In this document: positions 42,262 through 61,404 of the stretch, in pieces
How positions within the stretch are numbered: the stretch's first letter is position 1
Layout: each line of letters starts with the position of its first letter
Origin: Gemmobacter aquarius
GTDB taxonomy: Bacteria > Pseudomonadota > Alphaproteobacteria > Rhodobacterales > Rhodobacteraceae
Direction: 5' to 3'
Length of the DNA: 64,000 bases
NCBI RefSeq assembly: GCF_003060865.1
Contig: NZ_CP028918.1
Coordinates: forward strand, 256,001-320,000
Position numbers and translations under genes: made by a program
Notes under the pieces: model-generated
Told to the model about the DNA's origin: nothing
Databases searched by the model: none
What the model saw: the letters and a program-made list of their open reading frames with translations, nothing else

Positions 42262-43026
42262 CTAAAACCGCAAAAGCCCGCGCAACTGGGTGGCCACGCT
42301 GCGAAGCTCGGGGACGAGCCGTGCCGCAACATCGGCAATCGGCTCGGGTCCGGCCGCGAGCCCGACGTTCAGCGCCGCTATGACTCGACCGCGAGCGTTC
42401 ACCAAGGGAACGGCGACCGAGCACAGACCGAGTTCAACTTCCTGGTCGATGACGGCAAATCCTTGCTCGCGCACTTTGCTGATCTCTGAAACAACCGCTT
42501 CGGGATCGGTCAGGGTATAGGGTGTGCGGGGCGTCAGCGGAGCTGACCCGATCAACTCTTTCGCCGCCGGTGCGGGCAATGCCGCAAGCATCACGCGGCC
42601 CATGCTGGTGCAATAGGCGGGCAGGCGGCTGCCCGGCATGAGGCTGATCGACATGACCTTGCGCTGCGCGGCACGCGCGACATAGACGATCTCGGCCCCG
42701 TCGAGGATCGACACCGACGAGCTTTCACCGATCCGGTCGGACAGCGTATCAAGCGCCGGTTGCACGATGGCGGGCATCGGCATGGAGGCAAGGCAGGCCG
42801 TTCCAAGTCGCAGCACCCGGGGTGTGAGGGTGAAGAACTTGCCGTCCCAGTCGGCATATCCGTGATGGGCCAATGTCAGCAGGCAGCGGCGGGCCGTGGC
42901 ACGGTCGAGGCCCGAGGCGGCGGCTACCCCGGTGATGGACTGGCGCGGCGTATCTGTCCCGAAGGTCTCGATCACCGCGAGCCCTTTGGCCAACCCGCCC
43001 ATGATGTCGCGTTCGGTGATCGCCAT
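42262..43026 (-). CDS. IclR-family regulator (PcaR/PobR type)
   Basis: A 254-residue IclR protein. The N-terminal winged helix (about 10-75) reads GGLAKGLAVIETFG, SITGVAAASGLDRATARRCLLTL and GYADWDGKFFTLTPRVLRLG, the pattern of the PcaR/PcaU/PobR group. The C-terminal ligand domain has IVYVARAAQRKVMSISL, RLPAYCTSMGRVMLAAL and VDQEVELGLCSVAVPL-type motifs. It is divergent from pcaI with 129 bases between them, so it probably controls the CoA-transferase operon in response to beta-ketoadipate or a related acid. Confidence 0.9.
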   Translation of the reverse strand: MAITERDIMGGLAKGLAVIETFGTDTPRQSITGVAAASGLDRATARRCLLTLAHHGYADWDGKFFTLTPRVLRLGTACLASMPMPAIVQPALDTLSDRIGESSSVSILDGAEIVYVARAAQRKVMSISLMPGSRLPAYCTSMGRVMLAALPAPAAKELIGSAPLTPRTPYTLTDPEAVVSEISKVREQGFAVIDQEVELGLCSVAVPLVNARGRVIAALNVGLAAGPEPIADVAARLVPELRSVATQLRGLLRF

Positions 43027-43040
43027 GCCCGTGCCCTGTC

Positions 43041-43073
43041 GTGCGATATGTCAACAAATTATGCATAGCGCAC
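43041..43073. promoter_or_regulatory. Operator candidate between iclR-type gene and pcaI
   Basis: GTGCGATATG and CATAGCGCAC form an inverted repeat (9 of 10 positions) spaced by 13 bases, immediately upstream of the regulator gene and about 80 bases upstream of pcaI. Size and place fit an IclR-type binding site serving both directions. Confidence 0.5.
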
Positions 43074-43155
43074 ATCGTGCATGGACGAAAGGGGGCCAGC
43101 GGCGATAAGCCTTGATGCGACCCTGCGGCCAGACTCGCGGGACTGGAGGTTTCGG

Positions 43156-43890
43156 ATGGACAAGACCCTTCCCGACCTTGCCACGGCAGTGGCAGGGATA
43201 TCGGACGGCATGACCGTGATGATCGGCGGCTTCGGCGGATCGGGCGCGCCGATCGAGCTGATCCACGCGCTGATCGACCGTTTCGTGGCGACGGGCCACC
43301 CGCGCGACCTGACGGTGGTGAACAACAACGCAGGCAACGGGCATGTCGGGTTGGCGGCGCTGATCGAGGCGGGAATGGTGAGGAAGCTGATCTGCTCGTT
43401 CCCGCGCTCGGCCGATCCGGTGGTTTTCACCGAGATGTATCTGGCTGGAAAGATCGAGCTGGAACTGGTCCCCCAGGGGACGCTCGCCGAACGCATCCGT
43501 GCGGGCGGGGCGGGCATTCCGGCGTTTTATACCCCGACAAGCTTTGGCACCGATCTAGCCAAGGGCAAACCCGTCGAGGTGTTCGACGGGCGCGCCTATG
43601 TGCAGGAACGCTGGCTTAAGGCCGATTATGCGCTGGTCAAGGCGCATCTGGGCGACCGCTTGGGCAACCTGACCTACCGGATGGCCGCGCGGAACTTCAA
43701 CCCGCTGATGTGTACCGCTGCCGCCGCAACAATCGTGCAGGTCAGCCGCATCGTCGAGGCGGGCGGGATCGACCCTGAATCGGTGATCACCCCCGGCATC
43801 TTCGTGCAGGGTCTGGTCGAGGTGCCGAACCCCGCGCAGGAAGAAATCCTGAACCGCGCCAATGCCCGATACCCCGAGGTGGCCGAATGA
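43156..43890 (+). CDS. pcaI: 3-oxoadipate CoA-transferase subunit A
   Basis: A 244-residue alpha subunit of a class I CoA transferase: DGMTVMIGGFGGSGAPIELIHALID, VVNNNAGNGHVGLAALIEAG and IPAFYTPTSFGTDLAKGKP. With PcaJ it activates 3-oxoadipate using succinyl-CoA. The start at 43156 is preceded by GGAGG at 43144-43148. Its stop overlaps the pcaJ start (ATGA), so the subunits are coupled. Context (PcaF, maleylacetate reductase) supports the oxoadipate assignment over acetoacetate. Confidence 0.92.
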   Translation: MDKTLPDLATAVAGISDGMTVMIGGFGGSGAPIELIHALIDRFVATGHPRDLTVVNNNAGNGHVGLAALIEAGMVRKLICSFPRSADPVVFTEMYLAGKIELELVPQGTLAERIRAGGAGIPAFYTPTSFGTDLAKGKPVEVFDGRAYVQERWLKADYALVKAHLGDRLGNLTYRMAARNFNPLMCTAAAATIVQVSRIVEAGGIDPESVITPGIFVQGLVEVPNPAQEEILNRANARYPEVAE

Positions 43891-44558
43891 CCGCGAAGCT
43901 TTCCCCCACGCAAATCGCATGGCGCGCCGCGCAGGACATCGAGGACGGCGCATATGTCAACCTCGGCATCGGCTTTCCCGAGATGGTCGCCAAATTCCAG
44001 CCACCGGGACGCGAGGCGATCTTTCACACTGAAAACGGTATTCTCGGCTTTGGCGAGGCTCCGCCCGCGGGGGACGAGGACTGGGACCTGATAAACGCAG
44101 GCAAGAAGGCTGTGACGATCAAGCCGGGCACGGCGTTCTTCCACCACGCCGACAGCTTTGCGATGGTGCGGGGCGGGCATCTCGACGTCGCGATCCTGGG
44201 TGCCTACGAGGTGGCCGAGACGGGCGATCTGGCGAATTGGTCCACGGGGCCAAGGGGCGTGCCAGCCGTGGGCGGGGCGATGGATCTTGTGCATGGCGCA
44301 AAGCGGGTGGCGGTGATCACCGACCATGTGACCAAGGATGGCAAGCCGAAACTGGTGCAGCGCTGCTCTTTGCCACTGACAGGCGTGGGCTGTGTGACAC
44401 GGATATATTCCAGCCTCGCCGTGATCGACATCGAAGGTGGACGGTTCGTCTTGCGCGAAAAGTTGCCTTCGCTGTCGATTGACGCATTGCAGGCCCTGAC
44501 AGGGGCGGAAATGCTCGTGCCCGCGCCCGTTGTCGACCTGACCGTTCCGGAGCTTTGA
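43887..44558 (+). CDS. pcaJ: 3-oxoadipate CoA-transferase subunit B
   Basis: A 223-residue beta subunit. The catalytic glutamate lies in the motif IFHTENGILGFGEAP (about 51), and YVNLGIGFPEMVAKF precedes it. LPLTGVGCVTRIYSSLAVIDIE is typical of the family. It overlaps pcaI by four bases and directly abuts pcaF. Confidence 0.93.
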   Translation: MTAKLSPTQIAWRAAQDIEDGAYVNLGIGFPEMVAKFQPPGREAIFHTENGILGFGEAPPAGDEDWDLINAGKKAVTIKPGTAFFHHADSFAMVRGGHLDVAILGAYEVAETGDLANWSTGPRGVPAVGGAMDLVHGAKRVAVITDHVTKDGKPKLVQRCSLPLTGVGCVTRIYSSLAVIDIEGGRFVLREKLPSLSIDALQALTGAEMLVPAPVVDLTVPEL

Positions 44559-45758
44559 ATGACCCCCGTTTATATCTGCGACTATATCCGCACGCCCATC
44601 GGCCGCTTCGGCGGGGCGCTGTCTTCGGTCCGTGCCGATGATCTGGGCGCTGTGCCGCTGCGGGCGCTGATGGCGCGCAACGGCGGCGTCGACTGGGACG
44701 CGGTGGACGATGTGATCTTCGGCTGCGCCAATCAGGCGGGCGAGGATAACCGCAACGTGGCACGGATGTCGGCCCTGCTTGCGGGCTTGCCCGTGTCGGT
44801 GACCGGGACGACGATCAACCGTCTGTGCGGGTCGGGGATGGACGCCGTGCTGGTCGCTGCACGCCAGATCGCGGCGGGCGAGGCGCATCTGATGATCGCA
44901 GGCGGCGTCGAAAGCATGTCGCGCGCGCCCTTTGTCATGCCCAAGGCAGACACCGCCTTTTCCCGCAATGCCGAGATTTACGACACCACCATCGGCTGGC
45001 GTTTTGTGAACCCGGCGATGCAGGCCGCCCATGGCACCGACTCGATGCCGCAGACGGGGCAGAACGTGGCAGATGACTTTGGCATCGACCGCGACGCGCA
45101 GGACGCGATGGCGCTTGCCAGCCAGAACAAGGCGGCCGCCGCACAGGCCAGCGGGCGGTTGGCGCGGGAAATCACCCCCGTCACCGTTGCGCAGCGCAAG
45201 GGCGATCCGCTGGCCGTGGCCCAGGACGAACACCCCCGCGCCACCACGATCGAGGCGCTGGCCAAGCTCAGACCGCTGTTTCCGAACGGCTCGGTCACGG
45301 CGGGCAATGCGAGCGGCGTGAACGACGGCGCGGCGGCGCTGGTCATCGCCTCGGAAGCCGCGATGAAACGGCACGGCCTGCGCCCCCTCGCCCGCATCCT
45401 CGGCGGGGCGACCGCAGGCGTTGCGCCGCGCATCATGGGCATCGGCCCCGCACCCGCAAGCGAGAAACTGATGGCCCGCCTTGGCCTTGGACCCGCCGAT
45501 TTCGACGTGATCGAACTCAACGAAGCCTTTGCAGCCCAAGGCATCGCCACGCTGCGCCAACTCGGCATCGCCGACGACGACCCGCGCGTGAACCGCAACG
45601 GCGGAGCGATCGCACTGGGCCATCCGCTCGGCATGTCCGGCGCGCGGATCACCGGAACGGCGGCGCTGGAACTGCACGAGACCGGGGGCAAGCGGTCGCT
45701 TTCCACCATGTGCATCGGCGTCGGTCAGGGAATCAGCATCGCGCTGGAACGGGTCTGA
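44559..45758 (+). CDS. pcaF: 3-oxoadipyl-CoA thiolase
   Basis: A 399-residue thiolase that cleaves 3-oxoadipyl-CoA to succinyl-CoA and acetyl-CoA. The nucleophile Cys is in INRLCGSGMDAVLVAARQI (about 90), His in NRNGGAIALGHPLGMSGAR (about 355), and the second Cys in STMCIGVGQGIS (about 388). RTPIGRFGGALSSVRADDLGA is typical of the PcaF subgroup. It starts on the base after the pcaJ stop. Confidence 0.95.
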   Translation: MTPVYICDYIRTPIGRFGGALSSVRADDLGAVPLRALMARNGGVDWDAVDDVIFGCANQAGEDNRNVARMSALLAGLPVSVTGTTINRLCGSGMDAVLVAARQIAAGEAHLMIAGGVESMSRAPFVMPKADTAFSRNAEIYDTTIGWRFVNPAMQAAHGTDSMPQTGQNVADDFGIDRDAQDAMALASQNKAAAAQASGRLAREITPVTVAQRKGDPLAVAQDEHPRATTIEALAKLRPLFPNGSVTAGNASGVNDGAAALVIASEAAMKRHGLRPLARILGGATAGVAPRIMGIGPAPASEKLMARLGLGPADFDVIELNEAFAAQGIATLRQLGIADDDPRVNRNGGAIALGHPLGMSGARITGTAALELHETGGKRSLSTMCIGVGQGISIALERV

Positions 45759-45817: not shown

Positions 45818-46885
45818 ATGACGCTTTTTCAGAACAGCTTTGTCGTCAACAGCGCCGCAATGCGCGTCAGGTTCGGCGCCGGTGTGCGGCACAGTGTCGG
45901 TGACGAGATGGAGGCGCTTGGGCTGTCGCGGGCGCTGGTGTTGACGACGCCGCAACAGGCCGAGACGGGGCGCGAATTCGTCCGCCTGCTTGGCAGGAAC
46001 GCGGTCGGTTTGTTCGACAAGGCAACGATGCATACGCCCGTCGCCATCAGTGAAGAGGCAACGGCCGAGGCTATTCGTCTGGCAGCAGATTGCGTCGTAT
46101 CGATTGGCGGGGGTTCGACGACCGGTCTGGGGAAGGCGATCGCGCTGAGGACCGACCTGCCGCAGATCGTTGTGCCGACGACTTATGCCGGTTCGGAAGC
46201 GACGGGTATTCTTGGGCAGACGGAGCACGGACGGAAGACAACGATCACCACGCCCAAGGTCCAGCCCGAGGTGATTTTGTATGATCCCGAACTGGTGCAG
46301 GGCCTGCCGGTCGGCATGACGGTGACGAGCGCGCTGAACGCGATGGCGCATGCGGCCGAGGGGCTTTACGCGCAGAACCGTTCGCCTGTGTCCGGCCTGA
46401 TGGCGCTGGAAGGTCTGCGCGCATTCCGCAACGCGCTTCCCGCAGTGGTCGCCAATCCGTCCGATCTGGCTGCGCGGGGGGAGACGCTTTACGGCGCCTG
46501 GCTCTGTGGCAGTGTTCTTGGCTCGGTCGGCATGGCGCTGCATCACAAGCTTTGCCACACGCTGGGCGGGAGCTTCGATCTGCCGCATGCCGAAACCCAT
46601 GCAGTCATCCTGCCCCATGCCATCGCCTATAACGAGGTGGCGGTGCCAGACCTGCTGCGCCCCGTTGCCGAAATCTTCGGAACCGAGAGCGCGGGCGCGG
46701 CGCTTTACGCCTTTGGGCGGGATATGGGCGCACCGACCGCCCTGCGTGATCTGGGGCTGGCCGAAGCCGATCTCGACCGTGCGGCAGAGCTTGCGACCCA
46801 GAACCCCTATTGGAACCCGCGACCCGTCGAACGGTTGGCGATCCGCGCGATGCTACAGGCGGCATGGGCCGGTGACGCGCCCTAG
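45818..46885 (+). CDS. Maleylacetate reductase
   Basis: A 355-residue iron-type alcohol dehydrogenase of the maleylacetate reductase group. It begins FVVNSAAMRVRFGAGVRHSVGDE and carries VVSIGGGSTTGLGKAIAL, QIVVPTTYAGSEATGILGQTE and the His-rich HHKLCHTLGGSFDLPHAETHAVILPH. It reduces maleylacetate, the product of hydroxyquinol ring cleavage, to 3-oxoadipate, which PcaIJ then takes up. It lies 59 bases after pcaF on the same strand. Relatives are named MacA, TftE or GraC; the name was left open. Confidence 0.93.
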   Translation: MTLFQNSFVVNSAAMRVRFGAGVRHSVGDEMEALGLSRALVLTTPQQAETGREFVRLLGRNAVGLFDKATMHTPVAISEEATAEAIRLAADCVVSIGGGSTTGLGKAIALRTDLPQIVVPTTYAGSEATGILGQTEHGRKTTITTPKVQPEVILYDPELVQGLPVGMTVTSALNAMAHAAEGLYAQNRSPVSGLMALEGLRAFRNALPAVVANPSDLAARGETLYGAWLCGSVLGSVGMALHHKLCHTLGGSFDLPHAETHAVILPHAIAYNEVAVPDLLRPVAEIFGTESAGAALYAFGRDMGAPTALRDLGLAEADLDRAAELATQNPYWNPRPVERLAIRAMLQAAWAGDAP

Positions 46886-46893: not shown

Positions 46894-48624
46894 TCAGGTT
46901 GCGCTGTTGACCGCGCTGAGGATGCTGTTCTCGGCATCTCGCAGGGCCTGACGCGCGGGTTTGCCGTGGAACACCGCATCGTGGATTTCGGCGCCGAGGA
47001 TGCGTTCGATCAGGCTGAATTCCTGAATCGGCGGACGCGCCCATGTGACAAGCTCGTTCCGGCGGGCGAGTTGGTCGGCCATGCTGACGATGGGGGACGA
47101 GGCCAGCGCCTCGGGGTCGGCGCAGACGGAAAAGCGGGGGGCGACAGGGAAGCCGTTCTTGACATGGGCTTTCATCGCCTCGGGCGAGACCATCCATGTG
47201 ATGGCGTTCATGATCTGCTTTTGCCGTGCGGGTTTGACCGAGGCAGGGATGGTCATGAGAAAGCCGCCGATGGGGGCCGCGATGCGGCGCAAGCGGCGCG
47301 AGGGCGGGGGAAGATAGGCCACGCGGCGGGCGACCTGCGAGCTGAGTTCATGTTCGAAACGGGCGGCGCGCATGGTCCAGCAATAGGCAAGGCCGGCCCG
47401 GCCGGACATGAAGCACTGGATGCGCTTTTCCCAATCCATGAATTCGATGTCGGGGGGCGACACCTCGACCAGTTGCTTCATGTATTCGATCACCTCGACC
47501 GCATCGACCGTGTCGATCTGCAGTTTGAGCTTTTCGAATTTCGGAAAGACCCAGCTTTCCTGATTGTGCAGCGGCATGTCGATGATCGTCTTCTGGCAGG
47601 CAGCCAGAAAGAACATGAAGGAATTGGCGATTGGCATGCCGCGCTGGCCGTTCCACGCGATGCCGTAGAATTCCGATGCGGGCCGGTGCAGGGCGCGGGC
47701 GGCGGCGATGGTTTCATCAAAGGTGCGCGGAAAGGTCAGGCCCTTTTCCTCGAACAGGTCGCGGCGGGCGGCGAGGATTTCTATCGTGCAATAAAGCGGG
47801 ATGCCGTATTGCGTGCCCTTCCAGTTTCCGGTGCCCCAGACCGAGGGGTGGAAATCGAGCGGGTTGATCGCGGCGTCCTGCAACAGATCATCAAGGGGCG
47901 CGAGGTAGCCTTTTTCGGCAAATTCGCCCAGCCACGGCATGTTGATGGAAATGACATCATATTCGGCGTTCGGCTTTTCGAAATAGCTTTGCGAATTGAC
48001 GTAAAGGTCGGGTAGCCGCTGCAGGTCGAAGCTGCTTTTCTTGCCCAGATCGTTGCGGAAATCGGACCACATGTTTCGCATCGACGAGAAGTAGTTGTCG
48101 TCGTTGAGCAGAAAGCGAATGTCGCCCGGGACCTTGCCGGCGATGTCGTCGCCGCGCACGGGCGAAATGATCTGTGCCGCGAAATAGCTGCCGCCGAAAT
48201 AGTATTCGTTCGCCTCGGCGCCTTTTCGCAGGCCGAAGGTCTTGGCAAGATGGCCTTTTACGTGGGTCGCGTATTCCATGAAGCTTTGCAGCAGCGTGTC
48301 TGCGGGTTCGAGGAAATGCGTTTTCAACCCGCCGCCGCGCGGCACCTGACGGATCAGCCCGTCTTCGATCATCTTGCCGATCATGCGGTTGCCGGTCGAA
48401 TAGGGCACGCCTGCGAGTGTTATCAGGCCGGATTTGTCGATGGGGCGGCGGCGCAGGTGGCTGTCGACGAGTTCGAGCACCACGTTCCAGTACACATCCT
48501 TTGCCGCACCGGGCAGGCCGGTGTCGAACGGGGCGCGGAGTTTGCGTAAAAAGTCGACGATACGCGACAGTTCATGCGCGGTGAGTTCCGGTGAGGCAGC
48601 GATGGACGTGTTGACCTGTTGCAC
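46894..48624 (-). CDS. Transcriptional regulator with winged helix fused to ABC solute-binding domain
   Basis: A 576-residue protein without a signal peptide. Residues 1-125 look like a winged-helix domain: YWNVVLELVDSHLRRRPIDK, SGLITLAGVPYSTGNRMIGKM, IEDGLIRQVPRGGG. From about 155 to 540 it follows the type-1 extracellular solute-binding fold (SBP_bac_1): YDVISINMPWLGEFAEKGYL with PLDDLL, YGIPLYCTIEILAARRDLFE, FMSGRAGLAYCWTM and PIGGFLMTIPASVKPARQ with MNAITWMVSP. So a periplasmic-type sensor domain appears to be reused in the cytoplasm to control transcription. It starts at a GTG four bases after the upstream dehydrogenase stop. Probable target: the divergent catabolic operon. The domain reading is by motif only. 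Confidence 0.8.
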   Translation of the reverse strand: MQQVNTSIAASPELTAHELSRIVDFLRKLRAPFDTGLPGAAKDVYWNVVLELVDSHLRRRPIDKSGLITLAGVPYSTGNRMIGKMIEDGLIRQVPRGGGLKTHFLEPADTLLQSFMEYATHVKGHLAKTFGLRKGAEANEYYFGGSYFAAQIISPVRGDDIAGKVPGDIRFLLNDDNYFSSMRNMWSDFRNDLGKKSSFDLQRLPDLYVNSQSYFEKPNAEYDVISINMPWLGEFAEKGYLAPLDDLLQDAAINPLDFHPSVWGTGNWKGTQYGIPLYCTIEILAARRDLFEEKGLTFPRTFDETIAAARALHRPASEFYGIAWNGQRGMPIANSFMFFLAACQKTIIDMPLHNQESWVFPKFEKLKLQIDTVDAVEVIEYMKQLVEVSPPDIEFMDWEKRIQCFMSGRAGLAYCWTMRAARFEHELSSQVARRVAYLPPPSRRLRRIAAPIGGFLMTIPASVKPARQKQIMNAITWMVSPEAMKAHVKNGFPVAPRFSVCADPEALASSPIVSMADQLARRNELVTWARPPIQEFSLIERILGAEIHDAVFHGKPARQALRDAENSILSAVNSAT

Positions 48625-48628: not shown

Positions 48629-49540
48629 TCAGCCCCGTTGTGCGGAAATCCCAGAATGCCATTTCACCAAAGCGAAGAAATCTTCGTTTTGCAATCCTGC
48701 ATTCGCTGCGGCGCGGTAAAGTTCGAGGATAAGCCCCGAGGTCAGCATCGGCACGCCGTTGCCGCGTCCGGCATCGCTGATAAGGGTAAAATCCTTGATC
48801 ATCTGCTGGATGGTGAAGGCGGGGGTGTAGTCTTCTGACACCACCAGATCGGCCTTGTACTTGAACAAAGGCGAAGCGACGGCACTTTCGCAGATCACCT
48901 CCATCATCGCGGCGCGGCTGAGACCGCCGCTGGCGCCCATGCTGACGGCTTCGGCAAGAATGGCCGAGGATGCGCCGACGAGCGTGTTGAGAACCAGCTT
49001 CATGTAGCGCGCCTCGTCGCCCGTCCCGAGCCAGAACTGGCGGGCCGACAGCAGCGAGATCAGGGGGAGGGCCGTTTGCCAGCCTTGCGGATCGCCCGAG
49101 GCGAGCACGGTGAGCGTGCCTTTTTCGGCCAGAGCAGTGCTGCCCGATACAGGGGCGCGGATGTAGAGAATTCCAGCATTTGCAAGGATTTGCGCGACTT
49201 CTGCAGAGCATTCGGGGGAAACGGTGCTCATCTCGACCAGCACGGCACCGCGCGGCAGGCGGGTGGCAAGGCCCGCGACCACGGCGCGCAGGGCGGCATC
49301 GTCGGGCAGGGTGGCAAAGACGAGGTCGGCCCCGTCGAGGGCGGAAAGGTCTGCGCTGGTTGCGGCCCCTTCGGCAGAAAGCATCGCAAGCGTGGCGGGG
49401 TTCGGTTCGCAGACCGCGACCGCAATGCCTGCGGCAAGCAGGTTGCGCGCCATGGGCAGGCCCATCTTGCCCGCTCCGACCCAGCCGGTCTTTCTGCCCG
49501 CCACGCCTGCGCGTGTTTCGGCCGCCACTTTCGAATCCAT
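48629..49540 (-). CDS. 3-hydroxyisobutyrate dehydrogenase-family oxidoreductase
   Basis: A 303-residue beta-hydroxyacid dehydrogenase. The NAD(P) fold opens GWVGAGKMGLPMARNLLAAG, DLVFATLPDDAALRAVV follows, and the substrate loop has STVSPECSAEVAQILA with RAPVSGSTALAEKGTL. The catalytic lysine is in RYMKLVLNTLVG (about 182). The substrate is unknown; it is probably a 3-hydroxy acid or an intermediate of the neighbouring pathway. It shares a transcript with the downstream winged-helix/SBP regulator and is divergent from the alcohol dehydrogenase operon. Confidence 0.88.
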   Translation of the reverse strand: MDSKVAAETRAGVAGRKTGWVGAGKMGLPMARNLLAAGIAVAVCEPNPATLAMLSAEGAATSADLSALDGADLVFATLPDDAALRAVVAGLATRLPRGAVLVEMSTVSPECSAEVAQILANAGILYIRAPVSGSTALAEKGTLTVLASGDPQGWQTALPLISLLSARQFWLGTGDEARYMKLVLNTLVGASSAILAEAVSMGASGGLSRAAMMEVICESAVASPLFKYKADLVVSEDYTPAFTIQQMIKDFTLISDAGRGNGVPMLTSGLILELYRAAANAGLQNEDFFALVKWHSGISAQRG

Positions 49541-49602: not shown

Positions 49603-49619
49603 TTATCCGAAGCGGATAA
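49603..49619. promoter_or_regulatory. Perfect palindrome in the divergent promoter region
   Basis: TTATCCGAAGCGGATAA: 7-base arms with a 3-base centre, 63 bases upstream of the dehydrogenase-regulator operon and about 230 bases before the divergent operon. It is a good candidate operator for the winged-helix/SBP regulator. Confidence 0.5.
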
Positions 49620-52021: not shown

Positions 52022-52041
52022 GCGGGGGCAGGGGAGATATC

Positions 52042-52329
52042 ATGCATTACGTAGTCCATTGCCTTGACCATGACGGTGCCGTTGAAAAGCGGTTGGCGAA
52101 TTATGACGCGCACAAGGCCTATCTGGCGGCGGCGACGGTCAAAACGGTAATCTCGGGTCCGCTTTTGGCGGATGACGAGGCGACGATGATCGGAAGCTGC
52201 TTTGTTCTGGAAGCAGACAGTCTGGCAGCGGTCGAGGATTTCAATCGCAACGACCCCTTTGCCAAGGTGGGGTTGTGGAAAACCGTGTCGATCCGTCCCT
52301 TTGCCAAGCGCGTGGATAACCGGACATGA
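52042..52329 (+). CDS. YciI-like protein
   Basis: A 95-residue protein of the YciI/dimeric alpha-beta barrel fold: MHYVVHCLDHDGAVEKRLANYDAH-like opening, VISGPLLADDEATMIGS and VEDFNRNDPFAKVGLWKTVSIRPF. YciI proteins resemble muconolactone isomerase and some act as dehydratases or dehydrochlorinases in aromatic pathways. The start at 52042 follows GGGGAGA. It overlaps the next gene by four bases (ATGA). Confidence 0.8.
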   Translation: MHYVVHCLDHDGAVEKRLANYDAHKAYLAAATVKTVISGPLLADDEATMIGSCFVLEADSLAAVEDFNRNDPFAKVGLWKTVSIRPFAKRVDNRT

Positions 52330-53345: not shown

Positions 53346-54326
53346 ATGAAAGCCCTTATCTTCGACAAGCCGAACCAGCCGGTCGTGACGGATATCCAGA
53401 CGCCGTCGATCAACGAGAACGAGGTTCTTGTCCGGTCGCGCCGCGTGGGGATTTGCCATTCGGATTACGAATTGCTTGCGGGCAACTATATCATCCCGAT
53501 CTCGTATCCCGTCACACCCGGCCATGAATGGGTGGGCGAAGTGGTCGAGGTCGGCCGCAACGTCAAGGGTTTGCAGCGCGGCGACCGTGTGGTTGGCGAA
53601 TGCGTGATCCGCACGCCGGAACGTATCCACCATTTCGGTTTCTCGATGGATGGAGCGAACCGCGAGTTCTTTGCCGCCCGCCCCGAGTGGCTGCACAAGC
53701 TGCCCGATGGTGTGGATGACGCAAAGGGCGCGCTGATCGAGCCGTTCACCTGCGGTTACTATGCCGTGCTGCGGCATGGCGGGGTGGATGCATCGCAGAC
53801 CGTGGTGGTTTCGGGTGGCGGGACCATCGGCCTTGTGTCGGCGGCGGCGGCGATTGGCATGGGCGCGCAGGTGATCGTGGTCGATCCGGTGCCGCTGCGG
53901 CGCGAAATCGCGATGCGGCTGGGGGCCGTCGGCACGGTCGATCCGTCTGCGGGCAATGCCGTGGAAGCGGTGACCGAGATGACCAAGGGCGGCGCCGATC
54001 TGGTGGTCGAGGCTGCGGGGCATCCGTCATCGCTGGCCAATGTGTTCGACTATGCACGGCCCGAAGGGTTCGTTTCGATGGTGGGCATCAGCATCGGGCA
54101 GAAGATTCCGGTCGAGCTGGGCAAGATCCAGATCAAGGACCTGACCGTGCGCGGCTGCATCGGGTCGCCCGGTGTGTGGCCTGCGGCGATCCGGTTTCTG
54201 GAGCGCACGGGGATCGACCTGTCGCCGATCCAGACCCACAGCTTTGGTCTGGATGATGCGATCACGGCTTACGAGTTGGGCAAGGACCCGACCAAGGCCG
54301 TGAAGATCACGCTTGAGATCGCCTGA
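53346..54326 (+). CDS. Zinc-type medium-chain dehydrogenase, second copy
   Basis: A 326-residue MDR enzyme with catalytic zinc residues in RVGICHSDYELL (Cys), TPGHEWVGEVVEVG (His, Glu) and GALIEPFTCGYYAV. The NAD fold is TVVVSGGGTIGLVSAAAAIG. The structural zinc lobe is missing, the region between GDRVVGECV and EFFAARPEWL having no Cys cluster. It is short for the family. It lies 12 bases after the Gfo/Idh/MocA gene. Probable role: oxidising a hydroxyl of the imported compound. Confidence 0.87.
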   Translation: MKALIFDKPNQPVVTDIQTPSINENEVLVRSRRVGICHSDYELLAGNYIIPISYPVTPGHEWVGEVVEVGRNVKGLQRGDRVVGECVIRTPERIHHFGFSMDGANREFFAARPEWLHKLPDGVDDAKGALIEPFTCGYYAVLRHGGVDASQTVVVSGGGTIGLVSAAAAIGMGAQVIVVDPVPLRREIAMRLGAVGTVDPSAGNAVEAVTEMTKGGADLVVEAAGHPSSLANVFDYARPEGFVSMVGISIGQKIPVELGKIQIKDLTVRGCIGSPGVWPAAIRFLERTGIDLSPIQTHSFGLDDAITAYELGKDPTKAVKITLEIA

Positions 54327-54356: not shown

Positions 54357-55385
54357 ATGGCGCAAGGGATGCAAGCGGCAACGGCGCAGGGCGGCTTTGG
54401 TCTGACGCAGGTCAGGCTGGCGCGGGGCTTTGTCACGGTGGTCGTGTCGACCGTGCTGCTGCTGCTGGTCTGTCTGGTCTTTGCGCCGTCGGCCGTCTCG
54501 GCTGGCGGGTTGGCTGGAAGCCTGCCTTTCGCGGCGGTGATTGCCATCGTGGGGCTTGGGCAGATGCTGGTGGTGCAGCAGGGCGGGTTCGACCTGTCGC
54601 TGGCGGGCGGTGTATCGCTGGCGGTGGTGGTGACGACCCACCTTTCGGGCGGCAACGATGCGGACCTGCTTTCGTCGGTGATGATCGCCTTTGGCTTTGC
54701 GCTGGTTGCGGGATGCGTCAACGGCATCCTTGTCGGGGTGATACGGCTGAACGCCATTATCGCGACCATCGGGATGAACGCGCTGCTTTACGGGGCCGTG
54801 TTCGCGGTGTCGGGGGGCGTGCCGCGTATCACGACGCCGCTGATGGCGGAAATTGCGGGGGGCAAGACGTTCGGCCTGCCCAATTCGGTGCTGTTCGCGG
54901 TGGTGATCATGGTGGTTGTCAGCTTTGTGCTGAAAGCCTCGGTCGCGGGTCGCCGGTTCGAGGCGATCGGGGCCAATCCGCAGGCCGCCCATGCGGCGGG
55001 GTTGCCTGTGCGACGCTATCAGGCCGCGGCCTATGTGCTGGCCCAACTGCTTTACTGCGTCGCGGGGGTGCTGATTTCGGGCATCACGCGCGAGCCTACG
55101 GCCTTTCAGGGCGACAGTCTGCTTTTGCCATCCGTTGCGGTGGTCGTGCTGGCAGGCACGTCGCTTCTGGGTGGTCGGGGTTTTCCGATTTCGACGGTCA
55201 TTGCCGCGTTCTTCCTGAACCAACTCAGCCAGTTCGCGCTTGCCGTCGGAGTGCCGTTCTCGGCCCAGACCATCATTCAGGCCTTGGCCTTGGTCTTTGG
55301 GATCGGCGTCTACTCGGTCCACTTCAAACGGGCCGCAACAAATCGCGCTACCATGTCCAACTCGGAGGAAACGGACGATGTCTAA
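54357..55385 (+). CDS. CUT2-type ABC transporter permease
   Basis: A 342-residue RbsC-like permease with about nine membrane helices. FAAVIAIVGLGQMLVVQQGGFDLSLAGGVSLA is the family hallmark, and NPQAAHAAGLPVRRYQAAAYVLAQ is the coupling segment. VAVVVLAGTSLLGGRGFPISTVIAAFF is near the C-terminus. The ribosome site GGAGGGGAG precedes it. It overlaps the binding-protein gene by eight bases. A second permease half is fused to the ATPase downstream, so the channel is probably a heterodimer. Confidence 0.92.
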   Translation: MAQGMQAATAQGGFGLTQVRLARGFVTVVVSTVLLLLVCLVFAPSAVSAGGLAGSLPFAAVIAIVGLGQMLVVQQGGFDLSLAGGVSLAVVVTTHLSGGNDADLLSSVMIAFGFALVAGCVNGILVGVIRLNAIIATIGMNALLYGAVFAVSGGVPRITTPLMAEIAGGKTFGLPNSVLFAVVIMVVVSFVLKASVAGRRFEAIGANPQAAHAAGLPVRRYQAAAYVLAQLLYCVAGVLISGITREPTAFQGDSLLLPSVAVVVLAGTSLLGGRGFPISTVIAAFFLNQLSQFALAVGVPFSAQTIIQALALVFGIGVYSVHFKRAATNRATMSNSEETDDV

Positions 55386-56439
55386 GACACTTACGCTGTC
55401 GTTGTCGCTGGCGACGATCACCCTGACCACGGCTTTGGCCACCACCACCGTGCTGGCGGAAACCCCGTCCTGGTGCGGGCCCAAGCAAGCCTCGCTTGCG
55501 CTGCTCGACGGCTTTGGCGGCAACAGCTGGCGCCTTGTCACCACCGCTTCCGGCAAGGAAGAAGCGGCGAAATGCCCGAGCATCACGCAGTATGAATATG
55601 CCGATGGTCAGGGCAACACCCAGAAGGCCATTTCGGACATCAACTCGATGGCGGCGCGCGGCATCAATGCCATGGTCGTCTTTGGCGATGCAGGCCCCGC
55701 TGTGCTGCCCGCGCTGACCAACGCGCACAAGGCAGGCACCATCGTGGTGCCCTACCGCGTGAACGTGGGCGGTGAAGAAGGCGTGAACTACGCCAAGTTC
55801 ATCGGGTCGTCCTTTGTCGAGGACGGCAAGAGCTGGGGCAACTGGATCAAGACCAACCTGCCCGATGGCGGCAACGTCCTGTTCCTGTCCGGCCCCGCCG
55901 GAAACAGCCAGGGTCTGGACGAGCTGGAAGGCATGAAATCGGTTCTGGATGACAAGTATGTCTTCATCAACCAAGAGCCGTTCGCCGTCACCAACTGGGA
56001 TCCGTCCTTGACCCAGCAGGTTCTGTCTGCCGAGATCGCCAAGAATGACAAGATCGACGTGATCGTGTCGGACTTCGGCCCGTCGCTTGTCGGCGCGCTG
56101 CCGGTGTTTGCGGAATTCAAGCGGTCGATCCCGATGCTTGCCACGTCGGACGGCAACTCGTTGTCGTGCTTCTGGGCGCAGAACCACGAAGCCAACCCGG
56201 ACTTCAAACTGTTCACGGTTGCGACCGGAAACGACAACGTGCGTCTGGCCGTGCAATGGGCAGTCGCGCTTGCCACCGATGGCACGCCGCCGGCTGACAA
56301 TATCTTCAAGGCTCCGGTCTATGAAGATTCGGTTTCGGGCACACCGAACCCGGTGACCTGCCGCGACGATCTGCCCGGCTCGATCTATCTGTCGGCCGAA
56401 ATGGCGGATGACGCGCAGGCCGCAGCGGTCGGCCAGTAA
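55378..56439 (+). CDS. CUT2-type ABC transporter substrate-binding protein
   Basis: A 353-residue periplasmic binding protein of the ribose/galactose type (Peripla_BP_4). The signal peptide ends VLA-ETP. The mature part has ASLALLDGFGGNSWRLVTTA, DINSMAARGINAMVVFGDAG, AHKAGTIVVPYRVN and IDVIVSDFGPSLVGAL. Ligand identity is not predictable; two Cys pairs may form disulfides. A strong terminator-like hairpin lies directly after it. Confidence 0.9.
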   Translation: MSKTLTLSLSLATITLTTALATTTVLAETPSWCGPKQASLALLDGFGGNSWRLVTTASGKEEAAKCPSITQYEYADGQGNTQKAISDINSMAARGINAMVVFGDAGPAVLPALTNAHKAGTIVVPYRVNVGGEEGVNYAKFIGSSFVEDGKSWGNWIKTNLPDGGNVLFLSGPAGNSQGLDELEGMKSVLDDKYVFINQEPFAVTNWDPSLTQQVLSAEIAKNDKIDVIVSDFGPSLVGALPVFAEFKRSIPMLATSDGNSLSCFWAQNHEANPDFKLFTVATGNDNVRLAVQWAVALATDGTPPADNIFKAPVYEDSVSGTPNPVTCRDDLPGSIYLSAEMADDAQAAAVGQ

Positions 56440-56509: not shown

Positions 56510-59035
56510 ATGCCCGAGGTAGCAGCGATGAACGACATGCAGGTGCAGGATGCCGCCCCGGCGGCGCTGGTCGTGCCAAGGATACGGCTTTCCGGCATCA
56601 CCAAGACCTTTGCCGGTGTCACGGCTCTGGCGGATGTGTCGGTCGAAATCTATCCGGGCGAGGTTCATGCCATCCTTGGCGAGAACGGCGCGGGCAAGTC
56701 CACGCTGATGAACGTGATCGCGGGTGTGTTCCGGCCCGATACCGGCACGGTCGAATTCGACGGGGTGACCGTCAGCCCGATGACGCCGGAAAAGGCCGCA
56801 GCACTGGGCGTTTCGGTGTCCTACCAGCATCCGGCTGTGCTTGACGATCTTTCCGTGCTGGAAAACCTGCGCGTGGCGCTGCCCGCGCGGGTTTTTGCTG
56901 CGGGCGACCCTGAGCGCATCGCACGGGGAATGCTTGACGATGTCGGTCTGGATGTCGGGCTGCATCTGCGGGCCGATGCGCTGACGGTGGCGCAAAAGCA
57001 CCTGTTGGAAATCGCCAAGGCGCTGGCGACGCGCCCGCCGGTCCTGATCTTGGACGAGCCGACCGCCGCGCTTGACCAGGACGCGACCGAGATGCTGTTC
57101 GACCGCATCCGTTCCGTCGTGGCGCAGGGAACGGCGGTGATCTACATCACACACCGTCTGGCCGAACTGCGCCAGATCGCGCATCGCGTCACCGTGCTGC
57201 GCGACGGGCGGTTCAAGGGCGGGGCGTTGGTGCGCGACGTGACGGATGACGACCTGATGGCGATGATCGTCGGGCGCAGCCTTGCTTCGGCCTTTCCGCC
57301 CAAATGCGCCGAGGGCGCACCGGCGACGAATTTTGCCGTAAGCGGTCTGTCGGGCCGCAAATTCCACGACGTGCGTTTCGCCGTCGGACGCGGGCAGATC
57401 ATCGGGGTCGCCGGAGTCGAGGGCAACGGTCAGGCGCAACTGATGCGGGCACTGGCGGGGCTTGAGTCGTGGAGCGGGGAGATCCGCCTTGACGACAAGA
57501 CATTGACCGCTGCGGACGTGAAACAGAAGTCGGCCTATATGCCGTCGGACCGCCATTCCGAAGGGATCATCGCCGATCTGACGGTGCGCGAGAACGCCAC
57601 TTTCTCTGCGCTGGACCAGCTAAGCCATCTGGGCATCGTGAACCGTCGCGCCGAACGTGACGAGGTCAAGCGGCTGTTCGGATCGCTTGCGGTCAAGACG
57701 CCGGGGCTGGAGGCCAAGATCCTGTCGCTGTCGGGTGGCAACCAGCAAAAGGTCGTCATGGCGCGGGCGCTGATGTCGAAGCCCGGTTTCATTCTGGCGG
57801 ACGAGCCGACCCAAGGCGTCGATGTGGGCGCAAGGTTCGAGATCTACCGCATCCTGCGCGAGGTGTCGCAAGCGGGCACGCCGGTGATCGTCAATTCGTC
57901 GGACGCGGCCGAACTGGAGGGGCTGTGCGATATCGTCATCGTCATGTCGCGGGGCCGCGTGGCCGAAACGCTGCGGGGCGAGGACGTGACCGAAGAGAGG
58001 ATCGTGGCGGCAGCGGTCAAGGCGCAGACGCATATAGCCGGCGACGATGCGGTGCAGAGACTGCCCGCGAAGAAACGGCCCCTGCACGATTTCATCCAGA
58101 GCGACAATGCGACGGTCGCGCCGCTTGCCATCGTGATCGCGGCGCTGGGGCTTTATGTGTTCAGCCAGAACGGCAACTATTTCTCGGCCTTCAACATCTC
58201 GAACATCCTGCTTCTGGCGACCGCGCTGGGGTTCATCGCGATGGGGCAGACCATTGCCCTGCTGATGGGCGGGATCGACCTTTCGGTCGGGCCTTTGGCG
58301 GGCTTTCTGGTGGTGGTGGCGTCGTTCTTCATCAACGATGGCCAGTCGCCGCAGACCATCGCGCTGGGGTTCGCGCTGATGTTCGCGGGGGCGCTGGTGG
58401 TGGGGTCGATCAACGGGTTGTTGATACGCTTTGCCAATTTCACCCCGATCGCGGCGACGCTTGCCATGTATATCGGCCTGCAAGGCATGAGCTTCGTGCT
58501 GCGTGACGGGCCGGACGGTTACATCAACTTTGCGGTGATGGATTTCATCGGCTGGAAGCTGGGACCGATCCCTGTGGCGTTTATCGTGCTGGTCGCCGTG
58601 GCGCTGCTGGCCGAATACGGGCTGCGCTACCACCGCGCCGGATGGCAGTTGCGGTCCATCGGGTCGGACGAAGGCGCTGCGCGGCGGATGGGTATCCGCG
58701 TGGACCGTGTGGCAGTTGCGGGATACGTCGCCGTGGCGCTGTGCACGGCGCTGGGGGCGGTGATGCTGATGGTGCAGATCGGCGTCGGTGATCCGCAGCA
58801 GGGGGTAAGCTATACATTGGCCAGCATCACGGCGGTCGTGCTGGGCGGGACAAGTCTGCGGGGCGGGCGGGGCACGTTCATCGGCACCGTGATGGGCGCG
58901 GTCTTGCTGACCGAGGTGCTGAACGCGGTGTCGTTCCTCGGCCTGTCGCAGACCTATCAATACGTATTCCAGGGCGTGCTGATCCTTGCCGCGGCCCTGA
59001 TCTATTCGACGGCAAGAAGCCAGACCAAGGCCTGA
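56510..59035 (+). CDS. CUT2-type ABC ATPase-permease fusion
   Basis: An 841-residue fusion of RbsA- and RbsC-like proteins. First NBD: Walker A HAILGENGAGKSTLMNVIAG, signature region ALTVAQKHLLEIAKAL, Walker B PVLILDEPTAALD. Second NBD: degenerate Walker A GVEGNGQAQLMRALAG, signature SLSGGNQQKVVMARAL, Walker B ILADEPTQGVDVGA. From about residue 525 a permease begins (LGFIAMGQTIALLMGGIDLSVG, ITAVVLGGTSLRGGRGTFIG). The ATG at 56510 was used; one at 56528 is possible. Separate proteins are the norm, so the fusion fixes stoichiometry at one ATPase per one permease half. Confidence 0.93.
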   Translation: MPEVAAMNDMQVQDAAPAALVVPRIRLSGITKTFAGVTALADVSVEIYPGEVHAILGENGAGKSTLMNVIAGVFRPDTGTVEFDGVTVSPMTPEKAAALGVSVSYQHPAVLDDLSVLENLRVALPARVFAAGDPERIARGMLDDVGLDVGLHLRADALTVAQKHLLEIAKALATRPPVLILDEPTAALDQDATEMLFDRIRSVVAQGTAVIYITHRLAELRQIAHRVTVLRDGRFKGGALVRDVTDDDLMAMIVGRSLASAFPPKCAEGAPATNFAVSGLSGRKFHDVRFAVGRGQIIGVAGVEGNGQAQLMRALAGLESWSGEIRLDDKTLTAADVKQKSAYMPSDRHSEGIIADLTVRENATFSALDQLSHLGIVNRRAERDEVKRLFGSLAVKTPGLEAKILSLSGGNQQKVVMARALMSKPGFILADEPTQGVDVGARFEIYRILREVSQAGTPVIVNSSDAAELEGLCDIVIVMSRGRVAETLRGEDVTEERIVAAAVKAQTHIAGDDAVQRLPAKKRPLHDFIQSDNATVAPLAIVIAALGLYVFSQNGNYFSAFNISNILLLATALGFIAMGQTIALLMGGIDLSVGPLAGFLVVVASFFINDGQSPQTIALGFALMFAGALVVGSINGLLIRFANFTPIAATLAMYIGLQGMSFVLRDGPDGYINFAVMDFIGWKLGPIPVAFIVLVAVALLAEYGLRYHRAGWQLRSIGSDEGAARRMGIRVDRVAVAGYVAVALCTALGAVMLMVQIGVGDPQQGVSYTLASITAVVLGGTSLRGGRGTFIGTVMGAVLLTEVLNAVSFLGLSQTYQYVFQGVLILAAALIYSTARSQTKA

Positions 59036-59122
59036 CGCCGCCCGATACCGCAAGCATGGCCCGATCGGGTTCGGCCTCGGCCGCTTGCGGGCAGGTGCGC
59101 GCATTTCGACAAAGGAAACCGG

Positions 59123-59986
59123 ATGACAAAAGTGCCAGATATTCAGTTCTTTACGGAAAGCGGCTCGGTCGAGGCTGTGAATGGCCGGATCGGAGCGGGC
59201 ACAGAGCCACGGCTGGCGCATGTGATGCAGCGGCTTGTCGAACATCTGCATGCCTTCATCAAGGATGTCGGCCTGACCCAAGAGGAATGGGAAGCGGCCA
59301 TCGGTTTTCTGACGCGCACGGGCCAGATGTGCGATGGCAACCGGCAGGAATTCATCTTGCTGTCGGATGTTCTAGGCGTGTCGATGCTGGTCGATGCGAT
59401 CAACAACCGCCGCCCGGTCGGGGCGACCGAAAACACGGTGCTTGGCCCGTTCCATGTCGACGGCGCGCCGGAATACCCGATGGGGGCGAACATCACCAAG
59501 GACGGCGGGACCGAGACCTGCCTTTTCGAGGGTCGCGTGACGGACCTTGACGGCAACCCGCTAGAAGGCGTGCGGATCGATGTGTGGTCCGACAACGAGG
59601 ACGGCTTTTATGACGTGCAGCAACCGGGGCAGCAGCCCGAGCACAACAACCGTGGCGTCTTTGTCACGGGGCCGGACGGGCATTACCGCTTTCGCGGTAT
59701 CAAGCCGGTTTCCTATCCGATCCCGGCGGACGGGCCGGTGGGACAGCTTCTTGAACGGCTCAGGCGTCACCCGTGGCGGCCTGCCCATATGCATTTCATC
59801 GTCAGTTGCGACGGGTTCGAGACGGTGGTCACGCATACCTTTGTGGCGGGCGATGACTACCTGACATCGGACGCGGTTTTCGGTGTGAAAGACACTCTGA
59901 TTGCACCGTTCGAGCTGGTCGAAGGGGGCGAGACCAAGTGGCGGTCGACGTTCGACTTTGTGTTGAACCGCAGGGTAAAGGGCTGA
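59123..59986 (+). CDS. Hydroxyquinol 1,2-dioxygenase (intradiol)
   Basis: A 287-residue non-haem iron(III) intradiol dioxygenase. A helical linker domain (about 20-100) includes EEWEAAIGFLTRTGQMC and RQEFILLSDVLGVSMLVDAIN. The iron ligands are Tyr about 162 (DGFYDVQ), Tyr about 188 (GHYRFRGIKP), His about 222 and 224 (RPAHMHFIV). The sequence around LGPFHVDGAPEYPMGANI fits the hydroxyquinol/chlorocatechol branch. Together with the maleylacetate reductase in the island this points to hydroxyquinol, giving maleylacetate. Catechol is the main alternative substrate. Confidence 0.9.
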   Translation: MTKVPDIQFFTESGSVEAVNGRIGAGTEPRLAHVMQRLVEHLHAFIKDVGLTQEEWEAAIGFLTRTGQMCDGNRQEFILLSDVLGVSMLVDAINNRRPVGATENTVLGPFHVDGAPEYPMGANITKDGGTETCLFEGRVTDLDGNPLEGVRIDVWSDNEDGFYDVQQPGQQPEHNNRGVFVTGPDGHYRFRGIKPVSYPIPADGPVGQLLERLRRHPWRPAHMHFIVSCDGFETVVTHTFVAGDDYLTSDAVFGVKDTLIAPFELVEGGETKWRSTFDFVLNRRVKG

Positions 59987-59990
59987 GGGG

Positions 59991-61070
59991 ATGAACACCG
60001 ACATGACCGGGGCCAGCCTGAAACAAAGCCCGCGCATCGCCTTTCTGGGCACCGGAGCGCAGGGTGCATCTATCGCGGCGGATTTTGCGGCAGCGGGGCT
60101 GGATGTGACGTTCATCGACCAGTGGCCCGCGCATATCGAGGCGATCCGCGATAAAGGGATCACGGTGAACTTGCCGACGCGCAGTTTCAACGTGCGGGTT
60201 CCGGCGCTGCATCTGTGCCAGGTGGCCGAGATCAAGCAGCCCTTCGACCTGATCTTTCTGGTTGTAAAAGCATACGACACGCTTTGGGCCAGCCATCTTG
60301 CCAAGTCGGTTCTGGCGGAAGACGGATTCATCGTCGGGCTACAGAATGGCATGACCCATGAAGAGATCGCGTCGGTGGTCGGTCATCACCGCACCATTGG
60401 CGCTGTGATCGAAATCGCATCGAACATGTGGGTGCCGGGCATTACCAACCGCCAGAACGACCATGACGAAAGCTGGTTTGCGCTGGGTGCGCTGGACCCT
60501 GCCCAGCAACACCGCGTCGAAGGCGTGGCCGAGATACTGCGCCATTCGGGGCGGGTCGAGGTGGTCGACGACATCCGCTCGGCCAAGTGGATGAAACTGG
60601 TTGTGAATGCCGCCGAACTGATACCTTCCGCAATCATCGACACCGCGCTGAACGATGCCGCCCGCGCGCCCGGTATGCTGGACGTGATGCGCGAGGCGGG
60701 ATACGAGGCGATGCGTGCCGCCTTGGCGGACGGGGCGACGATCATGCCGATCATCGGGATGCCGCCAAGCATGAGCAACGATCCCGAACGCTACGTGGAC
60801 GAGATTTTCGCCGAAGTGCTCAAGACGTTCTCGCGCGAGGATACGCTGACGACGTCGCTTCAGGATTGGCGCAAGGGGCGGCGGGCCGAGGTGCGCGAGG
60901 TGAATGGTTGGGTTGTCGACATCCTGCGCGCCCACGGGCAGGCGGCACCGGTCAACCAACGGGTCGTAGAGATCGCGCTTGAGATCGAGGCGGGACTGAT
61001 CCGTCCCGACCAGAGGAATATCGCGCTTTTGAAGAGCGATTTGCAGCCCGCAGGTGCCGAGCGTGCCTAA
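59991..61070 (+). CDS. Ketopantoate reductase-like (ApbA/PanE) oxidoreductase
   Basis: A 359-residue protein with an N-terminal NADP fold (RIAFLGTGAQGASIAADFAAAG), then FDLIFLVVKAYDT, IVGLQNGMTHEEI and the catalytic Lys/Asn region SAKWMKLVVNAAELIPSAI. The length and C-terminus (TTSLQDWRKGRRAEVREVNG) fit the ApbA/PanE superfamily. Pathway context suggests reduction of a 2-oxo acid in the hydroxyquinol route rather than pantothenate synthesis. It starts four bases after the dioxygenase stop. Confidence 0.85.
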   Translation: MNTDMTGASLKQSPRIAFLGTGAQGASIAADFAAAGLDVTFIDQWPAHIEAIRDKGITVNLPTRSFNVRVPALHLCQVAEIKQPFDLIFLVVKAYDTLWASHLAKSVLAEDGFIVGLQNGMTHEEIASVVGHHRTIGAVIEIASNMWVPGITNRQNDHDESWFALGALDPAQQHRVEGVAEILRHSGRVEVVDDIRSAKWMKLVVNAAELIPSAIIDTALNDAARAPGMLDVMREAGYEAMRAALADGATIMPIIGMPPSMSNDPERYVDEIFAEVLKTFSREDTLTTSLQDWRKGRRAEVREVNGWVVDILRAHGQAAPVNQRVVEIALEIEAGLIRPDQRNIALLKSDLQPAGAERA

Positions 61071-61404
61071 CGTAAAGATCTATGTGGACGAGAGTGTTCT
61101 GGCAGGCGTAACGGAGCGGTCGGAGGCCGCTATGGCCGAACTTCGGCGCTATCTCTGCGAGGCGTTGGGCGTGACAGACGCGGCCTGTCATATCGTCCTG
61201 ATCGGGGTGAAATCCCCCGCCGGCCAGACGCCCGCGAATGTCGAACTGGTGCTTTTGCGCAGGCAGGATCGGACAAGCGAGGTGATGACAGCGTTTTGCA
61301 GCCGGTTGCGCGACCTGATGACCGGGTGGCTCGGGTGCCAGACGGCCATCCGTTGCACCTTGATGGAGACGGAACTGTATTTCGTGGCGCGCCAGCCAAC
61401 CTGA
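61063..61404 (+). CDS. Tautomerase-like protein
   Basis: A 113-residue protein starting at a GTG at 61063, so that the mature chain would begin with Pro (PNVKIYVDESVLAG), as needed for the catalytic Pro-1 of the 4-oxalocrotonate tautomerase superfamily. An earlier GTG at 61054 is possible. The rest (LGVTDAACHIVLIGVKSP, ELYFVARQ) is only loosely similar to known members. It overlaps the previous gene by eight bases and ends the operon; keto-enol conversion of maleylacetate or a related intermediate is plausible. Confidence 0.6.
   Translation: MPNVKIYVDESVLAGVTERSEAAMAELRRYLCEALGVTDAACHIVLIGVKSPAGQTPANVELVLLRRQDRTSEVMTAFCSRLRDLMTGWLGCQTAIRCTLMETELYFVARQPT

Follow-up and report, generated by a model that had tools for sequence, protein, structure and literature searches.

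We analyzed a 64,000-nucleotide stretch of the Gemmobacter aquarius genome (NZ_CP028918.1, positions 256,001-320,000; hereafter the window), which carries a catabolic gene cluster at window positions 42262..61404. The cluster combines genes for the cleavage of hydroxyquinol with several dehydrogenase genes and a sugar-type importer. We named its parts by profile searches against Pfam and NCBIfam and by comparison with solved structures in the PDB, and these searches recovered the genes listed in a preliminary description of this DNA close to where it had placed them. All genes lie on the forward strand unless noted otherwise.

The lower pathway begins with an intradiol dioxygenase of the hydroxyquinol type (59123..59986; PF00775, E = 2.7e-42), the sole PF00775 gene found in the genome. 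Its closest solved structure is 8r2x, a 6-chlorohydroxyquinol enzyme (E = 2.1e-122). The top five PDB matches, at E = 2.1e-122 to 6.4e-65, are all intradiol enzymes, either of the hydroxyquinol type or unnamed, and catechol dioxygenases rank well behind, from E = 5.3e-39. NCBIfam returned only catechol and chlorocatechol models, both under cut-off. Residues Y163, Y198, H222, and H224, which we take to be the iron ligands, were conserved in 18 of 18 sequences. The maleylacetate reductase (45818..46885, start taken from the sequence) is closest to structures that bear this same name (3w5s, E = 1.7e-129; 3hl0, E = 1.8e-128). The remaining steps are assigned to subunits A and B of 3-oxoacid CoA-transferase, PcaI (43081..43890; TIGR02429, 347.6 bits) and PcaJ (43887..44558; TIGR02428, 292.3 bits), and to the 3-oxoadipyl-CoA thiolase PcaF (44559..45758; TIGR02430 equivalog, 660.1 bits), all above cut-off. 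Beside them lies an IclR-type regulator of the PcaR/PcaU/PobR subfamily (42262..43026, reverse strand; TIGR02431, 328.6 bits against a cut-off of 284.75). The lower pathway had been described as complete, and the dioxygenase, maleylacetate reductase, PcaIJ, and PcaF were indeed all matched by family. The chemistry that leads from the dioxygenase through maleylacetate reductase to PcaIJ and PcaF is established for these families. Its assignment here, made from sequence, supports a lower pathway that would end in the cleavage of hydroxyquinol.

The genes that would feed this pathway were also as first described: a CUT2 importer, a Gfo/Idh/MocA dehydrogenase, two zinc-dependent dehydrogenases, a PRISE-family reductase, and a YciI-family protein. 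Zinc dehydrogenase 1 (49852..50919, start taken from the sequence) and zinc dehydrogenase 2 (53346..54326) both match PF00107 and PF08240. Between them lie the PRISE gene (50951..52021; PF22917, E = 2.1e-24, 86.7 bits against a cut-off of 27), the YciI gene (52018..52329; PF03795), and the Gfo gene (52326..53333; PF01408). The closest structures to the PRISE protein are those of enone reductases, namely plant progesterone 5-beta-reductases (nearest 2v6f, E = 3.7e-74) and iridoid synthases; the KHY lysine and the NFYY tyrosine, presumably the catalytic residues, align with their counterparts in 2v6f. The best PDB match of the YciI protein is TftG (4lbh, E = 6.3e-12), which the PDB names 5-chloro-2-hydroxyhydroquinone dehydrochlorinase; the His of YxAHxAYL and the Asp of NDPF, presumed to be catalytic, again align. 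Together, the TftG-like YciI protein and the chlorohydroxyquinol-dioxygenase-like enzyme indicate chemistry on rings at the level of hydroxyquinol. Neither likeness had been used in the preliminary description. The Gfo enzyme, whose EKP motif is conserved in 20 of 20 aligned sequences, matches inositol dehydrogenases, sugar oxidoreductases, DgpA, and a 4,5-dihydroxyphthalate dehydrogenase, and the closest named dehydrogenase families for the upper enzymes include IolG and IolM, under cut-off.

The importer consists of an ATP-binding cassette (ABC) permease (54357..55385; PF02653), a periplasmic binding protein (55378..56439; PF13407), and an ATPase-permease fusion (56510..59035; PF00005 twice plus PF02653). 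Among NCBIfam models the closest are those of transporters for ribose, xylose, arabinose, and allose, all under their equivalog cut-offs, and the predicted model of the binding protein has a predicted local distance difference test (pLDDT) score of 81. Sequence and predicted fold make the class clearly CUT2, and the ligand is a matter of prediction.

In order to see whether these genes belong together, the preliminary description had suggested a synteny search. We gathered loci from relatives, named genomes, and plasmids in which the PRISE protein was at least 78% identical to that of the window, and merged duplicates (L031 with L021, L033 with L143, and L144 with L036), leaving 24 distinct loci including the window. 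The set of importer, Gfo, PRISE, and dioxygenase genes recurs in them. The binding protein and the permease are each present in 23 of the 24 loci and the ATPase in 24 (one a fragment); the Gfo enzyme and zinc dehydrogenase 2 each in 23, YciI in 22, and zinc dehydrogenase 1 in 21. The dioxygenase accompanies them in 22 loci and the maleylacetate reductase in 14, with PcaI and PcaJ in five each, PcaF in four, and the IclR regulator in two. Several loci end within the region, and the lower gene counts are therefore minima. Among the further genes discussed below, a solute-binding regulator is found in 21 loci, a HIBADH-like gene in 20, a ketopantoate-reductase-like (KPR-like) gene in 17, and a tautomerase-like gene in 11 (at a lax threshold). 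Among the named carriers are Loktanella salsilacus (on a plasmid), Pseudooceanicola onchidii, Mesorhizobium xinjiangense, and metagenome bins of Cypionkella, Pseudorhodobacter, and Roseivivax.

As controls we used 73 loci with a more distant PRISE protein (about 38 to 66% identity), among them L026, L027, L028, and L146, whose PRISE identity of at most 66% kept them out of the 24. With thresholds of 40% identity and 60% of the length, none of the control loci contained the dioxygenase, maleylacetate reductase, importer parts, Gfo enzyme, YciI, zinc dehydrogenases, regulator, or KPR-like gene; the exceptions were a HIBADH-like gene in one of the 73 and an IclR gene in two, at 41-42% identity. 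The linkage, kept in 24 loci and absent from 73 controls, is thus far beyond chance. Two loci, L038 and L040, show no dioxygenase in the available stretch; both are short contigs, and other contigs of their genomes encode dioxygenases of this kind. The same gene set in 24 loci, together with a common candidate operator described below, supports the cluster as one functional unit.

The distribution of the cluster is patchy. It is present in seven of 18 other genomes of the genus; a PRISE match at E = 1e-150 was found in nine of 394 family genomes, including the window's own and one at 66% identity that is without the cluster; and a Gfo match at E = 1e-110 was found in one of 385 genomes drawn from the class, namely the window's own. 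This spread is consistent with a transferable catabolic island that serves a special substrate. More distant PRISE genes, 52-58% identical to that of the window and without these neighbors, are widespread in bacteria: they account for 69 of 80 retained loci, mostly in plant- and soil-associated genera. VOC genes accompany the cluster in nine of the 24 loci and ABM genes, annotated as putative quinol monooxygenase, in four (L016:10112-10947); neither was found in the window.

The candidate operator lies in the divergent promoter between zinc dehydrogenase 1 and the HIBADH-like gene, a 6PGDH/HIBADH-type dehydrogenase on the reverse strand (48629..49540; PF03446, PF14833; best NCBIfam score 166.8 bits, under the cut-off of 350). 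It is a perfect 7-bp dyad with a 3-bp spacer (49603..49619). Four of the 24 loci (L032, L035, L038, and L040) show no divergent HIBADH/zinc-dehydrogenase pair in the available DNA and were left out of the comparison; in all 20 comparable loci, the window included, the palindrome is present with at most three mismatches, against 0.2 expected from shuffles. Since the window supplied the pattern, it drops out of the independent count, which is 19 of 19. L142 matches weakly and not in the usual position, and the variants in L034 and L159 have both arms altered alike. Because the loci are related, the conservation is partly due to descent. Elsewhere in the genome there is no further perfect copy and there are four sites at two mismatches, compared with nine such sites for a reversed control pattern. 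With no second perfect palindrome and fewer near-sites than the control, nothing points to a further target, for instance a hydroxylase gene.

The likely binder of the palindrome, judged by sequence and predicted structure, is the product of the next reverse-strand gene, a putative one-component regulator of 576 amino acids with a type II solute-binding domain, SBP_bac_1 (46894..48624; PF01547, E = 4.7e-19), which is absent from the gene list of the preliminary description. Its winged-helix-like N-terminus matches MarR_2 below cut-off (E = 0.0043 when this piece is searched alone, E = 0.18 with the full-length protein). The predicted model has a helix-helix-helix-strand-strand arrangement at residues 44-107, the remainder of the model being poor, and no signal peptide was seen by eye at the N-terminus. 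The protein is possibly a cytoplasmic regulator that would use its solute-binding fold as a sensor.

We built a dioxygenase tree of 29 rows, skipping the repeat records L147, L148, L153, L154, and L161-L163 and keeping both L033 and L143, which represent one gene. Unlinked dioxygenases separate those of the two Pseudorhodobacter loci from the main group, and on the well-supported branches the label "cluster-linked" must change at least three times, which may also be one gain and two losses. The label is more clumped than in most shuffles, only three of 500 being as low. Gene order also varies: in G095, G645, and L039 the dioxygenase gene comes after zinc dehydrogenase 1 instead of after the importer. 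From the separate clades and the varied order we infer that the dioxygenase was kept beside, or returned to, the same upper genes despite rearrangement or replacement. When identity matrices were compared with that of PRISE (8 to 20 loci each, those having both genes; L141-L146 not in the set), none of 999 permutations was as high for ten partner genes and four of 999 were for zinc dehydrogenase 1; this test does not remove overall species relatedness. For the maleylacetate reductase, 90 of 999 permutations were as high, and its co-inheritance is therefore not demonstrated. One cluster carrier, G011, also has a separate hydroxyquinol locus on another contig (L163:7703-11005) with a second dioxygenase of the hydroxyquinol type (69%), a tautomerase-like gene adjoining it, and a maleylacetate reductase (78%) close by.

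Hydroxyquinol is generally regarded as arising from phenols through the action of oxygenases. The preliminary description had noted that no such hydroxylase is present, and the family profile searches likewise found none in the interval. HpaB_N had no match in the whole genome. PF02332 had none either, and none in any control genome, so its absence is not demonstrated. PF01494 had 18 genome matches, none of them in the window. Three span nearly the whole model, two being UbiH/UbiF-like and one salicylate/3-hydroxybenzoate-hydroxylase-like, and a fourth match, in a 394-amino-acid frame, spans half of it. The salicylate-like protein, encoded about 1.6 Mb from the cluster, is below the cut-off of every model shown. 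Its gene occurs in 18 of 19 genus genomes, including all 11 without the cluster, and was not found in the carrier G011 (genome 90% complete). Its presence is thus independent of the cluster across the genus, which argues that it does not act as a partner. Among the families searched, no identified phenol or resorcinol hydroxylase was linked to the cluster or co-varied with it.

Based on these observations, we tentatively propose, with somewhat less than even confidence, that the cluster serves the uptake and full catabolism of an alicyclic, sugar-like polyol through an oxygenase-free route to hydroxyquinol. The CUT2 importer would take up the compound, and the Gfo enzyme with one or both zinc dehydrogenases would oxidize ring hydroxyls to ketones. 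Water would then be lost from the keto ring by beta-elimination, either by the YciI protein, as its similarity to TftG suggests, or spontaneously. The PRISE protein would reduce an enone, or over-oxidized 2-hydroxy-1,4-benzoquinone, to hydroxyquinol. The dioxygenase would convert this to maleylacetate, the reductase would form 3-oxoadipate, and PcaIJ and PcaF would yield succinyl-CoA and acetyl-CoA. The divergent solute-binding regulator would probably sense the substrate or product at the conserved palindrome.

Deoxy-inositols of the quercitol or viburnitol type fit best as the substrate class. Oxidation of a deoxy-inositol beside its CH2 would give an alpha-deoxy-inosose, and loss of the 3- and 5-hydroxyls in two beta-eliminations would leave oxygens at carbons 1, 4, and 6, which is the 1,2,4 pattern of hydroxyquinol; by atom count, C6H12O5 - 2H - 2H2O = C6H6O3. 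In a variant, a second hydroxyl would be oxidized first, two dehydrations would give 2-hydroxy-1,4-benzoquinone, and one reduction would give hydroxyquinol. The product of TftG is 2-hydroxy-1,4-benzoquinone, and the variant would offer plausible jobs for YciI and PRISE. There is chemical precedent: keto-inositols aromatize through enolization and loss of beta substituents, with inosose derivatives giving 1,2,3,5-tetrahydroxybenzene (PMC5327690), and myo-inositol has served as the starting material for a chemical synthesis of 1,2,4-trihydroxybenzene (PMC11467972). Myo-inositol itself is an unlikely substrate, since elsewhere in the genome an IolD gene lies about 1 kb from one of the IolB/KduI family, which indicates a separate inositol pathway. 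The scheme in full, in which a deoxy-cyclitol would be oxidized, twice dehydrated with the TftG-like YciI protein, and set by PRISE to hydroxyquinol, with no oxygenase before cleavage and with a winged-helix/solute-binding-protein regulator, is a possibility that we hold with more doubt.

Several observations weigh against the proposed route. The likeness of YciI to TftG is modest. The IolG model scores far under its cut-off (112.7 bits against 355), as does IolM (142.7 bits and, for zinc dehydrogenase 2, 156.5 bits, against 450). In fold, the binding protein matches ribose, polyol, and inositol binding proteins equally well. The three to five dehydrogenase-like genes exceed what a minimal scheme would require, and neither the HIBADH-like nor the KPR-like protein has a place in it. 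The locus L040 has no YciI gene, and L038 lacks nearly all partners, retaining PRISE, an ATPase fragment, and a VOC gene. The hydroxylase search covered only the families HpaB_N, PF01494, and PF02332. As for L038 itself (L038:5349-7283), it comes from a Hyphomicrobiales bin, and its copy of the cluster is apparently decayed or rearranged.

Other explanations share parts of this evidence. The substrate could be an O- or C-linked glycoside of a hydroxyquinol-like ring, in which case the importer would bring in the glycoside, the Gfo enzyme would oxidize the sugar, the aglycone would be eliminated and cleaved by the dioxygenase, and PRISE and YciI would tidy quinone or enone forms. The importer is of the sugar type, DgpA and sugar oxidoreductases are among the matches of the Gfo enzyme alongside inositol dehydrogenases, and in G095 (L025:13578-16806) an FGGY-family kinase and a split transketolase adjoin PRISE on the same strand, a possible hint of a sugar moiety. 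The recurring genes, however, include no glycosidase or lyase, and three dehydrogenases with PRISE and YciI exceed the needs of deglycosylation; we regard a glycoside as unlikely. Some other alicyclic compound, such as a cyclohexanetetrol, a cyclohexenone natural product, or a quinate-like acid, might instead be aromatized by the same enzyme types. A tetrol also fits the atom counts, with two oxidations and one dehydration, and an enone substrate would explain PRISE, but such a compound, to which we assign a small probability, is not favored by any family match. The Loktanella copy, which adjoins genes annotated as a shikimate dehydrogenase and a sugar-phosphate-isomerase/4-hydroxyphenylpyruvate-domain protein, points in this direction as well, though these neighbors are not among the recurring genes. 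The stretch past that plasmid copy (L016:26978-30770) holds these two genes and a TRAP transporter, possibly for quinate or shikimate catabolism.

The upper genes could also be unrelated to the lower pathway, or a phenol or resorcinol could be imported or diffuse in and be converted to hydroxyquinol by an unlinked hydroxylase, the cluster being a loose neighborhood. The distant salicylate/3-hydroxybenzoate-hydroxylase-like flavin adenine dinucleotide (FAD) enzyme and one further PF01494 gene would be the candidates. Against this stand the occurrence of the former in every cluster-free genome of the genus and its apparent lack in one carrier, a gene set that holds together through rearrangement, and a candidate operator that has no second perfect site in the genome, so that we consider it quite improbable. 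The preliminary description had proposed that an imported alicyclic polyol or glycoside is aromatized to hydroxyquinol. This interpretation is plausible and, as far as sequence can carry it, partly supported: a single unit, a hydroxyquinol end, a near-constant sugar or polyol importer, and no tracking hydroxylase are all consistent with it, but a cyclitol and a glycoside are indistinguishable by sequence as the substrate.

Two genes at the end of the cluster complete it. The KPR-like enzyme (59991..61070; PF02558, PF08546) is of the ApbA type and overlaps the small tautomerase-like protein (61054..61404), which has a second in-frame GTG at 61063. The label tautomerase, taken from the preliminary description, is weak: the small protein has no Pfam or NCBIfam family match, and among nine orthologues the N-terminus is Met-Pro in six, Met-Ala in two, and without Met in one. 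An Rrf2 gene (61495) and the gene after it had no match in 21 other loci compared, and for this reason we placed them outside the unit.

If the proposed route is correct, cyclitols or similar compounds would gain another entry to the 3-oxoadipate pathway, by dehydrogenation and dehydration alone, and the bacterium would build an aromatic ring in order to destroy it. PRISE and YciI proteins would acquire a catabolic role, and the enzymes could provide an oxygen-free biocatalytic route from cyclitols to polyhydroxybenzenes. We recognized no description of the cluster or of a catabolic route from cyclitols to hydroxyquinol among the literature matches listed, a weak negative given that most subscription journals were not covered.

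The cluster shares features with several known systems. In the chlorinated-phenol branch, hydroxyquinol derives from an oxygenase-made phenol; the dioxygenase, YciI protein, and reductase described here are each closest to members of that branch among solved structures, but the searches recovered no oxygenase partner, in whose place stand a sugar-type importer and dehydrogenases. The resorcinol and gamma-resorcylate pathways reach hydroxyquinol through a hydroxylase and have the ring cleavage and the type of maleylacetate reductase in common with the cluster, whereas this genome has no HpaB-type gene. Bacterial inositol pathways (IolG, IolM) resemble it in CUT2-type import and in the use of Gfo/Idh/MocA and zinc dehydrogenases, but the cluster has no gene of the kinase, IolD, or IolE type, and its product would be an aromatic ring. 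In quinate and shikimate catabolism, an alicyclic polyol is oxidized and dehydrated to an aromatic ring, protocatechuate, and then enters the 3-oxoadipate route. The proposed pathway would follow the same logic with other enzyme families, another importer, and another ring-cleavage substrate. On present evidence, the cluster would add a new upper branch to a lower pathway that is already known.

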